A stretch of 64,000 nucleotides of DNA, taken from Blautia sp. Marseille-P3201T. Lineage in GTDB: Bacteria > Bacillota > Clostridia > Lachnospirales > Lachnospiraceae. The notes beneath the pieces are model-generated. The model was given only the letters and a program-made list of their open reading frames with translations, ran no database searches and was not told where the DNA came from. The stretch lies in assembly GCF_900120295.1 (NCBI RefSeq), contig NZ_LT635468.1:1-64000 (forward strand), written 5' to 3'. Positions 58,764-63,809 of the stretch are shown here, in pieces. Position numbers and translations under genes: made by a program. Each line of letters begins with the position of its first letter. The first letter of the stretch is position 1.

Positions 58764-58821
58764 ATGTTCGCAATTCCTTTTCCCCATTTTCTCTTTCATT
58801 TCACCTTTTTCTCCCCAACAG

Positions 58822-58851
58822 AAAAACCCCGGAAACCTTACGGTTCCGGGG
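58822..58851 (-). terminator. Terminator downstream of the tuf remnant
   Basis: On the minus strand CCCCGGAACC / GGTTTCCGGGG around GTAA, followed by TTTTT. A strong terminator fitting the end of a highly expressed gene such as tuf. Confidence 0.9.
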
Positions 58852-58987
58852 TATCTTACGCTTGGACACAATGTATCTTTCGATACTCTATATTTTATTC
58901 TAATTAACTAAGGTAGTTCTTTTCGCCCTGCTCAAAGAACGGCTTTCTCACTAAATTCGTGCTATGCACTCATTAAGTGTTCAATGC

Positions 58988-59042
58988 CTACTCGATGATA
59001 GAAGCAACACGACCTGATCCTACAGTACGTCCACCTTCACGA
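58988..59042 (-). pseudogene. tuf: 3' remnant of elongation factor Tu gene (tuf)
   Basis: On the minus strand the last 17-18 codons translate as REGGRTVGSGRVASIIE and stop (TAG, 58990-58988), the invariant C-terminus of EF-Tu. Homology ends at the Arg codon: the preceding bases give TAT instead of Ile and an in-frame TGA lies one codon further up, so the rest of the gene is missing. It sits exactly at the boundary of the defence island, so it probably marks an integration or rearrangement junction. Confidence 0.9.
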
Positions 59043-59167: not shown

Positions 59168-59995
59168 TTATCTTTTATAAACGACAATTCCCTTATTATT
59201 AAATTTTCTTATTCCATCCCTTTCTTGCTGGAAAACTCTTACTTCATTAAAATTATCTCTTCCTCCAAGTTTAAAAGCACTGCTGGCAATATTCTTTGTA
59301 TTTAATGGATTAGTTGTGGCATAAACATTTACTTTTTTTATATTATTATTTAAGCTCCTGACTTCATTAACAACGCACCTTACTAATTCAGGACTATCAT
59401 ATCTGTTAACATCATTAGTATTATTACGCGATATTAATAATGTCGGTATATTTTTCTTTATTTCCGGTAATTGGCTCAATGAAAGAGGATATGTATCAGA
59501 AATCATTACATTCACTTCATCTGTTTCATGCGAAAAATTTGATTTACTTACTGAAATGGTATCATTTTCTTTTTTATCAAACTCTCCGCAATTATATTTA
59601 TCGAACGTATCATTCAGCACCAGTTTAAATTGCATATATATCGGCACCTGAATAAGGTTACATTCCGAGTACCCCAATATCTTTGAACATATCCGATACC
59701 ACCCATATCTGTACTGTTTATAATAGTTTCCTCTATTAAACATATATGTTTTATTCCACTTTCTAATTATAAACAATACTACTATTAAAAAGAAAACACC
59801 AATTGCCCAATCTCCACCTTTCCAGGCAAAGTAAAAAATATAATCACATATTTTTTGTGACGCTTCCAGCTTAGGCGGGGTCTTTATTAACTCTGTAATT
59901 TTAAATATTCTCGGAGCAAAGAACACACCAACAAGCAACAGAAGTTGTAATATTGGTCTGATATTATTTTTTATCCTTTCATAAATTGATTTCAT
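59168..59995 (-). CDS. Putative CBASS membrane effector with two TM segments, unclassified
   Basis: 275 residues. TM1 at about 13-31 (ILQLLLLVGVFFAPRIF) and TM2 at about 62-79 (WAIGVFFLIVVLFII), then a ~190-residue soluble domain. That domain shows alternating strands and helices (EVNVMISDTYPLSL, TLLISRNN, ELVRCVVNEVRSLNNNIKKV, NVYATTNPLN, ASSAFKLGG, NEVRVFQQERD), a Rossmann-like pattern that could be a small SAVED/CARF-like ligand sensor. I do not recognise a named Cap effector. It overlaps cap3 by 17 bases, has GAGG upstream and is the last gene of the CBASS operon. The expected role is cyclic-nucleotide-gated membrane disruption; this is inference from position and topology. Confidence 0.72.
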   Translation of the reverse strand: MKSIYERIKNNIRPILQLLLLVGVFFAPRIFKITELIKTPPKLEASQKICDYIFYFAWKGGDWAIGVFFLIVVLFIIRKWNKTYMFNRGNYYKQYRYGWYRICSKILGYSECNLIQVPIYMQFKLVLNDTFDKYNCGEFDKKENDTISVSKSNFSHETDEVNVMISDTYPLSLSQLPEIKKNIPTLLISRNNTNDVNRYDSPELVRCVVNEVRSLNNNIKKVNVYATTNPLNTKNIASSAFKLGGRDNFNEVRVFQQERDGIRKFNNKGIVVYKR

Positions 59996-60464
59996 TCCAT
60001 TTTACCTCACATATTTTTTTCGGGCAAAGCTTTCCTTTTTGCATTCTCCATATGCTGAATGCTTTACATCCGGCAATGATATGATATTGTACCCCTTTAG
60101 GATCTTCTTTACCAATACGTTTCCAATTTTTTAAATCTATAATTGAATAATGTGGTATATCTTCCGGATGTGTATGCCATTCCCCCCAATATGCATACAC
60201 ACCATTATTTTCATTATACAATTTTTCAAAATATTTTAAATGCCCTTCATCTTTTCTGGTATATCTGGTTCTGGTACATATATCATTTTTTAATGGTTTA
60301 GATATATACTCAAGAATTATATTTTCATTATTCAGATTTTCCCGTCCGACTATAATTCCACCTTTCTCTGGATCATAATCATTCTTCTGGATCTGACTAT
60401 ATATTTCTTCCAATATTTGATCGCATATCTTTATTTTTCTGTTTTTACTTTCCGTTACAATCAT
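59979..60464 (-). CDS. cap3: CBASS Cap3: JAB/MPN isopeptidase
   Basis: 161 residues from the ATG at 60464 (a GTG four codons upstream is also possible). The complete JAMM motif is present: Glu in PEKGGIIVG, then WHTHPEDIPHYSIID with H-x-H-P and the S-x-x-D. Cap3 removes Cap2-attached targets from the CD-NTase, by analogy with deubiquitinases. The reading frame overlaps the end of cap2 by 20-32 bases. In contrast to the MPN domain at 2296-3414, this one is intact. Confidence 0.92.
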   Translation of the reverse strand: MIVTESKNRKIKICDQILEEIYSQIQKNDYDPEKGGIIVGRENLNNENIILEYISKPLKNDICTRTRYTRKDEGHLKYFEKLYNENNGVYAYWGEWHTHPEDIPHYSIIDLKNWKRIGKEDPKGVQYHIIAGCKAFSIWRMQKGKLCPKKICEVKWNEINL

Positions 60465-62190
60465 TACATACACCACAATTAATATTTACAAATTGCTTAC
60501 CAGTCAATATTTTAATCTGTTCCTGTTGTCGCAAATATCGGCCAGATGTTTCCAGATTATGTTTTTCCAGATAGTCACTATCTCCTTTTAAAGATATCAG
60601 TAAATTGTCATCGAGGTTTTCTTCAAAAATATTTTTGACCATCTTTAAACAAAGTAACATTGTTTTTAGTGAAACCAAATTTCCATATGGCACGTAAGTC
60701 TTTCCACACCCTCCCGCACTTTCCGTTATAATCTGTCCCCTCATGCAGTACGATGTTTTGTCATATAGTTCTCCTGTTTCTTCATCCCGGTCAAAAAAAC
60801 ACTCATAACATCCACAATTTCCATATTTTATATATGCAGCATGATTTCCAATACCATATACTTCATTCCACAAATAAACAACCGGCACTTTGATTTTGTT
60901 ATTTTGTATCCATGAATTAATCCAACGATTTAAATTATGATTTCCTGCCGCTGAGATAATCAGATTATAGTCTTCAAAATTAATATCTTCTTCTGTAATT
61001 GCATCTTCAATTCTTTCCGCCAACGTCGTTATCTTTACTTCCGGAATATTTTTTTGTATATATGTGTTCAAAGCTTCGCACTTGTAACGATTAACATATT
61101 CCATTCCCAACACATGCCTGAATATATTTTCTTCCGTCAACTTCTCATAATCAACAATAGTAAGATCCTCATATCCTGCTTTTGCGAGCTCGCATATAAC
61201 ATGTCCACCAATCGAACCGCAGCCTATTATAAGTATTCTGTTTTTATAGTTTTCGCTGTCCTGTTCTGTTACACGCTTCATCAAAAACTTTTTATCAGCT
61301 CTTTCCATAAGCAACGGCTGCAGTTCTTCTACTTTTTCCAGAGAAGTCTCTTTTAACATGCCACCTTTTATATACATTCCTACAAGATGTGTCTGTCCTG
61401 ATGGCTGATGAATTTCAAACACAACAATTCTATCTTGTCGAGAACGTGGCATAATTGAAGCAAGTTCTCCCTCCGGCACAAAATGTAAAAGAGCATTCAA
61501 ATAATCTATCGACAGTTTTTTTCTTATGTCCGGTGGAAAAATATATTTTTCAGAATATATTACAAAATATGCTATATTCATGACCGGCGTTTTTTCCAGA
61601 TTCCAACGTTTTAAACTTTCAACATTTTCTCCAATATAAATCGGTGCTTTTTTGCATCTCTTTATATACTCTATCTGTTTTTCTTTTTTCCTTTTGGAAC
61701 TTTTTTTAATGCCCCCTTTTACGATACGATTTTTTCTATCTGTTTCCACTGCCAAATGTGCAATTCTGCAATCTTTCAGTTGAGCCCAGTATAATTCAAA
61801 TTCATTTATAAAATCGTTTTTATTTTCTCCAGAAAAACCTTGTTTTAAAATTGTCTGTGCACGCAATAATGATTGCATCATAATTCCAAGTAAATTCTGA
61901 TCTATCAAAATACCTTCCGTTTCAAACAAACACAGTTTTCCTTTATTATCTATATGCGGCATATAAACAAGTTCATTATAATCTGCAACATATATATCCA
62001 CTAAATCTCTATACCATTTTTCCGGAACTGCTATATATACAACAAACGATTCTCTTTCATTTATTACCAGTTCTCCCTGCAAAACTGTCTGATAGACATT
62101 TTCAAATAATTTAGCCTCTTTTATAATGCTTACATTTTTTATAACATCACTTTCCTGTAAGATTCGTTTGAGTTCTTCTGGTGAAAACAT
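60445..62190 (-). CDS. cap2: CBASS Cap2: E2-E1 fusion (ubiquitin-transfer-like)
   Basis: 581 residues. The N-terminal E2-like domain has its catalytic Cys at 87 (HIDNKGKLCLFE). A linker/IA domain follows (about 150-300). The E1/ThiF adenylation domain begins LIIGCGSIGGHVICELAKAGY (about 320) with IVDYEKLTEENIFRH, and its catalytic Cys is 495 in SAGGCGKTYVPYG. Zinc cysteines are visible in NCGCYECFF (459, 461, 464) and in the C-terminal NCGVCNDC. Cap2 primes the CD-NTase by conjugating its C-terminus to targets. It begins one base after the CD-NTase stop. Confidence 0.93.
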   Translation of the reverse strand: MFSPEELKRILQESDVIKNVSIIKEAKLFENVYQTVLQGELVINERESFVVYIAVPEKWYRDLVDIYVADYNELVYMPHIDNKGKLCLFETEGILIDQNLLGIMMQSLLRAQTILKQGFSGENKNDFINEFELYWAQLKDCRIAHLAVETDRKNRIVKGGIKKSSKRKKEKQIEYIKRCKKAPIYIGENVESLKRWNLEKTPVMNIAYFVIYSEKYIFPPDIRKKLSIDYLNALLHFVPEGELASIMPRSRQDRIVVFEIHQPSGQTHLVGMYIKGGMLKETSLEKVEELQPLLMERADKKFLMKRVTEQDSENYKNRILIIGCGSIGGHVICELAKAGYEDLTIVDYEKLTEENIFRHVLGMEYVNRYKCEALNTYIQKNIPEVKITTLAERIEDAITEEDINFEDYNLIISAAGNHNLNRWINSWIQNNKIKVPVVYLWNEVYGIGNHAAYIKYGNCGCYECFFDRDEETGELYDKTSYCMRGQIITESAGGCGKTYVPYGNLVSLKTMLLCLKMVKNIFEENLDDNLLISLKGDSDYLEKHNLETSGRYLRQQEQIKILTGKQFVNINCGVCNDCNGK

Positions 62191-62191
62191 C

Positions 62192-63253
62192 TTAATCTAC
62201 TCCTGATGCACTTGTTGAAGGTATAAAATTCATTTGTTTTTTGGCTGCATTTTTCTTTTCCGGAATCGGGAAATCATCTCCAAAAATTTTACTCAGCATC
62301 TTACACTGTTCCACTTCATCTGTTTCACTTTTTACAGCTTCCAGATCATCAACCAAATCATCAATCTTTTCTTTAAAATCTGTCATATAATTATCTGACA
62401 TCTTTCTGAAGAGATTAACATCGGATTCAAAGTTCAATGAAGAAGGCAAATTGTATTCTATAGTATATATTAATCGTCCATTTTCATTCACTTCTTTAAA
62501 CACAAACAGCTTTTGAATTTCTTTTGCAAAACTAATCACAGCCTGTAAATCATCATAACAATATTTTTCTTCTATATAATCATATTTTTTTGAAGCTTCA
62601 AAATGATCTACAGCAATTAACGTAATTGCTATGCTTGGTGGTTCTGCATTTCCCGAACTACTGAATTTCTTATTTTTCCAACGTTTTATATATCTTACTA
62701 CTCTGCGAAATTGTTCGCGATCTTCTTTGTTATCATCACCTTTATATTTATCATTAACATATTCTACAAGCCCGACCGGATCAGATTTCTCCCAGCATGT
62801 TTCTTCTGAATCCCTGTTTTTTCCACGTGCAAGATATAACTGACTGTCAGAATCATCTTTGTCTTCATAAACGTAAGTAACTAAATCCACATGATATGCA
62901 GCTTCGCCATCTTTCTTGTATGTTACTGTCACACATGGTTTTTTTATTTTTGCGCCGTACTCAGTATGATTTTTTAACAGATCTCTTATTTTCTCTTTCA
63001 GGTCCATTGGTTCATAATCATCACGATTAACATGAAAACGTAAACCTACATCTATATCATATTCTTTATCCAGTGGTTCAACCCCCAGATGCATACTATA
63101 ACTTCCCTGATTGTACTCATCAAATGCAGGCATATCGTCATCATTTCTTAATATACCTAATAAAATATCTCTTTTTTCTTTCAGTTCACTTTTAACGTCA
63201 TAATCCATTTTTATTACTTTGTTAAATTCTTTAAAATATGTCTGCAAACTCAT
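62192..63253 (-). CDS. CBASS CD-NTase (cGAS/DncV-like oligonucleotide cyclase)
   Basis: 353 residues. The nucleotidyltransferase core has NQGSYSMH (G50-S51), the metal pair YDIDVGL (D66, D68) and the third acid YHVDLVTYV (D123). The C-terminal part is helical, as in OAS/DncV-type cyclases, and ends in a disordered tail NFIPSTSASGVD, the probable Cap2 conjugation site. On phage infection it would make a cyclic di- or trinucleotide that activates the effector; the product cannot be told from sequence. AAGGAAGGAG lies eight bases upstream and overlaps the CIRCE operator. First gene of the operon. Confidence 0.92.
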   Translation of the reverse strand: MSLQTYFKEFNKVIKMDYDVKSELKEKRDILLGILRNDDDMPAFDEYNQGSYSMHLGVEPLDKEYDIDVGLRFHVNRDDYEPMDLKEKIRDLLKNHTEYGAKIKKPCVTVTYKKDGEAAYHVDLVTYVYEDKDDSDSQLYLARGKNRDSEETCWEKSDPVGLVEYVNDKYKGDDNKEDREQFRRVVRYIKRWKNKKFSSSGNAEPPSIAITLIAVDHFEASKKYDYIEEKYCYDDLQAVISFAKEIQKLFVFKEVNENGRLIYTIEYNLPSSLNFESDVNLFRKMSDNYMTDFKEKIDDLVDDLEAVKSETDEVEQCKMLSKIFGDDFPIPEKKNAAKKQMNFIPSTSASGVD

Positions 63254-63269
63254 TTTCCGCGCTCCTTCC

Positions 63270-63296
63270 TTAGCACTCTCTTTTGTTGAGTGCTGA
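63270..63296 (-). promoter_or_regulatory. CIRCE element (HrcA operator) in the CBASS leader
   Basis: The + strand reads TTAGCACTC, nine bases (TCTTTTGTT), GAGTGCTGA. The CIRCE consensus is TTAGCACTC-N9-GAGTGCTAA; 17 of 18 arm bases match, with the exact 9-base spacer. It starts about two bases after the predicted transcription start and overlaps the ribosome site, as HrcA operators do. Confidence 0.88.
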
Positions 63297-63304
63297 TAAT
63301 TATC

Positions 63305-63333
63305 AGTATATCATTCTTTTCCGATTAAAACAA
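63305..63333 (-). promoter_or_regulatory. CBASS operon promoter
   Basis: On the minus strand TTGTTT (63333-63328), 17 bases, TATACT (63310-63305), followed within ~10 bases by the CIRCE element and then the CD-NTase ribosome site. Confidence 0.8.
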
Positions 63334-63359
63334 GTTACACTAATCACTGAATTTTTTTT

Positions 63360-63809
63360 TCAAATCTCCAAGCTATATTGTTCATTCTGCAAATAATCCT
63401 CCAGTTGATGCAATTTATCTTCTCGGAATTCTTCATCTTTTTTCATTTTCTTTATTGTGCATTCCCACACAATTACTACTTTGACTTTTTTACGCATCAA
63501 TTCTTTTCGAACATATTCATCCCTCTTTATATTTGCGTCAAACTTTTTCTGCCAGAATTCTACCCTTGATTTTGGCATGTAAGCATATTTGCATCCCTCG
63601 TGCCTGTGCCAGAAACACCCATGTACAAAAATTGCTGTATTGTATTTTCTCATGTATATATCCGGATGCCCCGGCACACTTTTTGAATTCACGCCATATC
63701 TGTAACCTCTGGCAAACAATAATTTTCTCAGATATATTTCCGGCTTCGTATTCTTGGAATGTATCGCTGCCATATTTTTGCTACGTTCTTCTGGACTCTT
63801 GATGTCCAT
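63360..63809 (-). CDS. vsr: Very short patch repair endonuclease Vsr
   Basis: 149 residues: SPEERSKNMAAIHSKNTKPE at the N-terminus, GHPDIYMRKYNTAIFVHGCFWHRHEGCKYA (catalytic Asp, zinc Cys/His) in pieces around residue 50-75, and VVIVWECTIKK. Vsr nicks T:G mismatches left by deamination of 5-methylcytosine, so a cytosine methyltransferase is expected nearby, probably beyond the window edge. It starts one base after the restriction-enzyme-like stop codon. Confidence 0.94.
   Translation of the reverse strand: MDIKSPEERSKNMAAIHSKNTKPEIYLRKLLFARGYRYGVNSKSVPGHPDIYMRKYNTAIFVHGCFWHRHEGCKYAYMPKSRVEFWQKKFDANIKRDEYVRKELMRKKVKVVIVWECTIKKMKKDEEFREDKLHQLEDYLQNEQYSLEI

Follow-up and report, generated by a model that had tools for sequence, protein, structure and literature searches.

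The CBASS operon and its promoter

We analysed a 64,000-nucleotide stretch of Blautia sp. Marseille-P3201T (positions 1 to 64,000 of contig NZ_LT635468.1, hereafter the window), whose right-hand end carries a CBASS operon with an inverted repeat at its promoter. The features at this locus are as follows, with contig positions given where a feature reaches past the window.

58816 to 59041, no strand assigned: left end of the CBASS-bearing integrative mobilizable element, repeated at contig 73490-73646
59168 to 59995, minus strand: SUa-2TM effector (membrane effector), 275 aa (PF18179, 185 bits; PADLOC 2TM effector, 291 bits)
59979 to 60476, minus strand: Cap3-type JAB protease, 165 aa (PF14464; PADLOC JAB)
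60445 to 62190, minus strand: Cap2-type E1-E2 fusion, 581 aa (PF00899 and PF14461; PADLOC E1-E2 PDLC00831, 633 bits)
62192 to 63253, minus strand: CD-NTase (DncV-like cyclase), 353 aa (PF21654 and PF18144; PADLOC Cyclase PDLC00795, 369 bits)
63262 to 63269, minus strand: ribosome-binding sequence GGAAGGAG, directly after the CIRCE, read from the sequence
63270 to 63296, minus strand: CIRCE, a candidate HrcA operator, TCAGCACTC-AACAAAAGA-GAGTGCTAA on the coding strand, with 1 mismatch in 18 arm bases
63305 to 63310, minus strand: -10 box TATACT, 8 nt upstream of the CIRCE, by consensus match only
63328 to 63333, minus strand: -35 box TTGTTT, 17 nt from the -10 box, by consensus match only
63360 to 63809, minus strand: Vsr mismatch endonuclease (PF03852), beside an EcoRII-type R-M set
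contig 63811-64983, strand not given: EcoRII (PF09019/PF09217), mostly beyond the window
contig 64984-66141, strand not given: C-5 methylase (PF00145), beyond the window

Judged by its domain content, the operon is a complete type II CBASS, comprising a CD-NTase, E1-E2 (Cap2), JAB (Cap3) and the cognate SUa-2TM effector. Past the EcoRII and C-5 methylase genes lie a Mob_Pre relaxase in two frames, a VapE-like gene, a tyrosine integrase and an HTH_3 gene, the last of these at contig 72439-72972, about 9 kb away from the CBASS. The relaxase, at contig 66638-68094, is split into two frames here, and a single 486-aa frame is present in two other genomes that carry the element (G028 and G1039, see below). 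No CapW, CapH/CapP or CapK/CapS gene was found beside the operon promoter, where the neighbouring genes are Vsr, EcoRII and the C-5 methylase.

Read along the coding strand, the promoter region runs TTGTTT-N17-TATACT, 8 nt, the CIRCE, GGAAGGAG and the ATG at 63253. Compared with the TTAGCACTC-N9-GAGTGCTAA operator, the inverted repeat agrees in 17 of 18 arm bases and has the exact 9-base spacer, just as an earlier sequence-only reading of this DNA had claimed, and it is the sole match at up to three mismatches in the 64 kb (mean of 0.03 matches over 100 shuffles). That reading had additionally placed the repeat from about +3, which agrees with the promoter-like boxes 8 nt before it; with the transcription start deduced from these boxes, the repeat would begin near +2/+3. 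By consensus match only, the geometry is that of a sigma-A promoter whose operator lies at the transcription start or shortly beyond it.

CIRCE sites and hrcA in the genome and the family

Searching the whole 2.94-Mb genome (10 contigs) at up to three mismatches, we found exactly four CIRCE places, with none in the backwards control. The three besides the window site match perfectly and stand upstream of hrcA-grpE, groES-groEL and htpG (with hrcA, groES and htpG confirmed by Pfam). The hrcA gene that the sequence-only reading had asked to be confirmed in the host is present (PF01628, 228 bits), and of 17 further genomes searched, 16 also gave a PF01628 match. The exception is G553, host of the CD-NTase locus L019 described below, in whose 98% complete genome no hrcA was found by PF01628 despite CIRCE sites ahead of groES, htpG and hsp20; an assembly gap or a divergent hrcA is possible.

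On a CIRCE score matrix, the window site reaches 31.1, inside the canonical range of 19.0-35.1 given by 132 distinct other sites, although the comparison is somewhat circular because the matrix was built from sites within three mismatches. The best background score was 2.8 in 330 kb, apart from the CBASS sites and with one locus present in the background twice.

Across the family, CIRCE at up to two mismatches was found in 80 of 80 genomes searched (backwards control: two sites in total). From the 370 places in these genomes, we classified the four of the window's own genome and 84 others, made up of 71 sites listed for 16 genomes plus one, the first, from each of 13 others, with labels assigned by blastp against reference proteins from the same loci (Pfam agrees on the reference proteins, including ClpB, Hsp20 and Lon). 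Using this approach, 77 of the 84 precede hrcA (22), groES (17), htpG (15), hsp20 (16), clpB (6) or lon (1), and six precede htpG, hsp20 or clpB at a longer distance (labels by eye), so that 83 of 84 lie ahead of chaperone or heat-shock protease genes, with a single exception. The 14 genomes of the window's genus hold 66 CIRCE sites (one in the backwards control), 22 of which were classified. When the genus genomes are taken together with the CBASS hosts, 54 of 55 CIRCE rows, some of them the same site in two loci, are labelled as chaperone or protease sites; the remaining row is about 80 bp away from an htpG site. Since chaperone or protease genes stand behind nearly all sites read, CIRCE marks such genes very specifically in this family, and the CBASS sites are conspicuous.

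Two further observations concern the heat-shock sites themselves. CIRCE (two mismatches) lies ahead of lon in five genomes of the window's genus (L229, L342, L343, L344 and L355), with the Lon domain of L229 confirmed by Pfam. At many hsp20 and clpB CIRCE sites of the family (L204, L206, L217 and others), TTGACA is found inside the repeat, and the -35 box may overlap the operator there, unlike at groESL and hrcA in the genome of the window.

Recurrence of CIRCE ahead of defence genes

We compared CD-NTase loci from four overlapping sources, namely GTDB contigs (6 loci) and genomes of the family (397 genomes; 6 hits, one of them the window), of the order (392 genomes; 7 hits) and of the class (341 genomes, searched with PF21654; 14 hits), which together yield 27 distinct loci when G108/L009 and the window are each counted once. 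CIRCE was sought within 150 nt upstream of the CD-NTase start; the start codons of L015, L017 and L023 are possibly off, and some CD-NTases of the PF21654 class set are not first in their operon, placing the operon promoter outside the 150-nt test, with at least 1.3 kb upstream scanned.

A CIRCE just upstream of the start was found in five of these 27 loci: the window (one mismatch), L006 (two), L009 (one), L017 (three) and L019 (three). None was found within 150 nt upstream in the other 22, where the best candidate had seven mismatches. Each of 399 shuffled palindromic motifs gave no hits over the 27 loci, nor did any spacer from 0 to 24 other than 9, and we rejected a chance palindrome on these two controls. 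Conservation of the motif ahead of homologous CBASS operons, on which the sequence-only reading had staked its proposal, thus held in part: the recurrence is far beyond chance, but most loci lack the motif, including the fairly close relatives L007 (75% identical), L008 (71%) and L014 (63%).

Judged by CD-NTase identity and flanks, the CIRCE-bearing loci are distinct rather than a single locus copied. Their CD-NTases are 78% (L006), 62% (L009) and 26% (L017) identical to that of the window, and L019 comes from another family of the same order. The flanks are unlike where readable, with type I R-M genes and a phage-type integrase near L006 and an aldo/keto reductase gene near L009. Genes for E1-E2, JAB and SUa-2TM are common to L006, L009 and L019, and L017 stops at a contig edge inside an E1-E2-like gene. 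In a tree of 26 CD-NTases (the partial gene of L023 being counted among the 27 loci and left out of the tree), CIRCE presence needs four changes, of which well-supported branches force three, and shows no significant clustering (132 of 500 label shuffles were as low as four changes), which indicates that CIRCE was gained or lost several times ahead of CD-NTases; the window has L006 as its sister, at modest support (86/68).

Outside the 150-nt test, one more site was found in 125,105 further bases of the 26 non-window loci, in L168/L274 (three mismatches). In L274 (6648-8980, G936) it follows TTGAAA-N17-TATACT, and an HNH-SAVED effector gene begins 16 nt after it, with a CD-NTase next. This locus, from another order of the class, may be an additional instance; its operator score is weak (13.3). 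The CIRCE scores at the other CBASS loci are 32.0 (L009), 24.2 (L006), 20.4 (L019) and 12.7 (L017); L017 and L274 score below every canonical site, and five of the seven defence sites fall within the canonical range. The best choice of a promoter script ends 7-10 nt before the CIRCE in the window, L006, L019, L274 and the AAA ATPase locus described next. In L009 and L017 the script's first choice lies elsewhere, with boxes found by eye 4 and 7 nt before the CIRCE tying with it in score, so the promoter evidence for these two loci is weaker.

The seventh defence site is the sole exception among the 84 classified family sites. Located in G028, a genome of the window's genus, it reads ATAGCACTC-N9-GAGCGCTAA (two mismatches, score 19.2), follows a perfect TTGACA-N17-TATAAT and lies 36 nt before a 517-aa AAA_15 ATPase (L271:7819-9435, G028 C67). 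Like the AAA ATPases AriA (PARIS), OLD and GajA, this protein matches the AriA (PDLC02979, 286 bits) and OLD/GajA models; unlike AriA, it has no AriB-like partner in sight, as its strand encodes no further protein of at least 100 aa between it and a convergent gene downstream. Beside it lie an NgoBV-type endonuclease, a methylase and Vsr.

By blastn, the G028 and window islands have 6.7 kb of backbone in common (92.9% identity), and their left ends match as well (90%); from this likeness, they are one integrative mobilizable element, with the ATPase in the same cargo slot as CBASS. In the terminal repeats of the element, stretches of 61 bp (93%) and 90 bp (78%) match, and the copy at contig 73490-73646 lies at the 3' end of tuf (EF-Tu by Pfam). 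A third copy, in G1039 (93.3%), lies beside tuf by eye and has other cargo and no CIRCE; an R-M set together with a CIRCE-headed defence-like gene is found in two of the three copies read. No promoter similarity beyond the CIRCE is evident by eye between the window and G028 copies, and no CIRCE at up to four mismatches was found in eight other relaxase regions (several on short contigs). Across 250 genomes, there is one further relative of the ATPase (G157, 69%, on a 4.9-kb contig), which lacks CIRCE, so that the CIRCE-ATPase case rests on a single genome. Nor was CIRCE found at three ATPase relatives read of 265 plasmid records, and no close ATPase relative was found in IMG/VR.

For the CD-NTase itself, we rejected carriage by phages, with no relative of the window's protein in 50,697 phage records and no close relative in IMG/VR, and by plasmids, where the relatives in 135 records are all below 60% identity; no CIRCE was found in the five plasmid CD-NTase relatives read (best 6-7 mismatches). 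Among 48 genomes of G553's family, no second CD-NTase of the same kind was found (the one hit is G553 itself). In viral contigs from IMG/VR (loci L024-L146), exact or one-off CIRCE sites lie ahead of the contigs' own GroES-like (14 of 134 sites) and HtpG-like (2) genes, and many Hsp20-like genes stand behind viral CIRCE sites by eye. A tblastn search of these 123 viral CIRCE loci with 26 CD-NTases found no CD-NTase.

Proposed control by HrcA and its meaning

Based on these comparisons, the repeat ahead of the window's CD-NTase is most likely a working HrcA operator, through which HrcA would repress CBASS and release it together with the chaperones when GroEL is occupied, leaving a suicide system loaded under folding stress. 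Counting in favour of HrcA control are the position of the genome's other three CIRCE sites at chaperone genes along with the presence of hrcA; the five CD-NTase loci with CIRCE between promoter-like boxes and ribosome site, with shuffles and other spacers at zero; and the differing flanks, with CIRCE otherwise at chaperones, ClpB and Lon and its lone exception at a defence-like gene in the same element slot. Counting against it are the 22 loci without CIRCE, the lack of clustering on the tree, the weak L017 and L274 sites, the tied boxes of L009 and L017, and G553. For CIRCE-headed mobile defence genes, the most likely reading is that HrcA represses them and that they would be freed when GroEL is overloaded.

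HrcA is reported to bind CIRCE with its binding enhanced by GroE, and its proposed release is titration of GroE by misfolded protein (PMC8533110 and PMC3842655, both in excerpt). By analogy with this known biology, from which repression, GroEL dependence and stress release of CBASS are all carried over, HrcA kept active by GroEL/GroES would sit just downstream of the CBASS transcription start and hold the operon low. With GroEL occupied by misfolded or newly made proteins, whether through heat, toxic stress or a phage making capsid protein in bulk, HrcA would fail and CBASS would be made together with the chaperones, loading the suicide system at times when folding capacity is stressed; killing itself would still need activation of the CD-NTase. 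The coupling of abortive infection to proteostasis stress that the sequence-only reading had proposed would likewise follow from known HrcA biology, and we are least sure that phage infection itself triggers the release of CBASS by HrcA. In L. lactis, groESL expression rose more than twofold when one arm base was replaced (PMC4585701, in the portion available), so that one to three mismatches may weaken control.

It is quite possible that the repeat is a real HrcA operator which only keeps a toxic operon low, tied to general growth stress, and that phage does not release CBASS. Speaking against so limited a role is work on phiX174 in E. coli, a host not known to have HrcA. That infection provokes heat shock more strongly than any other host response, and several phages depend on GroEL/ES for their morphogenesis (PMC8125068, in part). 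On the other side, regulators of immune operons may serve to limit toxicity (PMC13373217), CapW-controlled CBASS protected while repressed, without needing induction (PMC9122588), and expression of hrcA and heat-shock genes was lower, not higher, in phage-carrier C. jejuni, which its authors relate to phage-made chaperones (PMC4534711), going by the available parts of these three papers; the last two results also count against the preferred reading.

An RNA hairpin in the 5' leader, acting mainly on mRNA stability or translation rather than as a DNA operator, is improbable: the repeat does fall within what would be the leader, immediately ahead of the ribosome site, and base pairing between its arms is possible, as read from the sequence, but the CIRCE letters are kept and not pairing alone, shuffled palindromes and other spacers gave no hits, and the genome encodes in hrcA a DNA repressor known for exactly this sequence. 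More improbable still is that CBASS simply came to lie behind a pre-existing chaperone promoter or that the repeat is a chance palindrome, since, although the window's spacer is identical to that of the clpB CIRCE in G040, there is no likeness to the G040 clpB promoter outside CIRCE (by eye), the upstream neighbours (Vsr beside the R-M set of EcoRII and C-5 methylase) led us to reject a landing behind a chaperone gene, and a chance origin fits neither the recurrence in dissimilar contexts nor the shuffle control.

With HrcA control of CBASS as the preferred reading, the locus can be set beside known systems. Like the HrcA/CIRCE class I heat-shock regulon, it has a 9-N9-9 operator between promoter and ribosome site and hrcA in the genome, but the genes downstream form an anti-phage abortive-infection operon rather than encoding chaperones or proteases. 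Like type II CBASS, it has the CD-NTase, E1-E2, JAB and 2TM effector in one operon, but its promoter is adjoined by Vsr and R-M genes rather than a Cap regulator and has the site of a host-wide repressor instead. According to the available sections of PMC13373217, the three described Cap regulator families (CapW/BrxR, CapH+CapP and CapK+CapS) likewise repress the transcription of immune operons until stress relieves it, but they are encoded beside the operon and all answer to DNA damage, whereas HrcA is encoded elsewhere and reports protein folding; other defence regulators exist, such as RptR (PMC12255303, in excerpt). CBASS and HrcA/CIRCE are both known, and the wiring between them appears to be new: none of the literature matches listed, from a search whose coverage leaves most subscription papers and bioRxiv outside, links CIRCE or HrcA with CBASS, and one apparent match, PMC10359306, proved false.

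A broader proposal, which we regard as doubtful, is that mobile elements of Lachnospiraceae and their kin repeatedly put suicide-type defence (type II CBASS, the AriA/OLD-like ATPase and possibly HNH-SAVED CBASS) under HrcA, with capsid-occupied GroEL as the alarm that would load the defence, and that CIRCE-headed GroES/Hsp20 of phages could quiet this alarm.

A chaperonin-dependent repressor would add a second input to immune operons, namely protein-folding stress besides DNA damage. HrcA control would also account for the regulation of a mobile defence operon that carries no regulator of its own and would instead borrow a repressor found in nearly every host tested. Collectively, the recurrence of this putative switch ahead of defence genes suggests that trouble with protein folding raises the cell's phage alarm, and predicts that the CBASS level would follow GroEL load and that phages bringing chaperones may dampen it.
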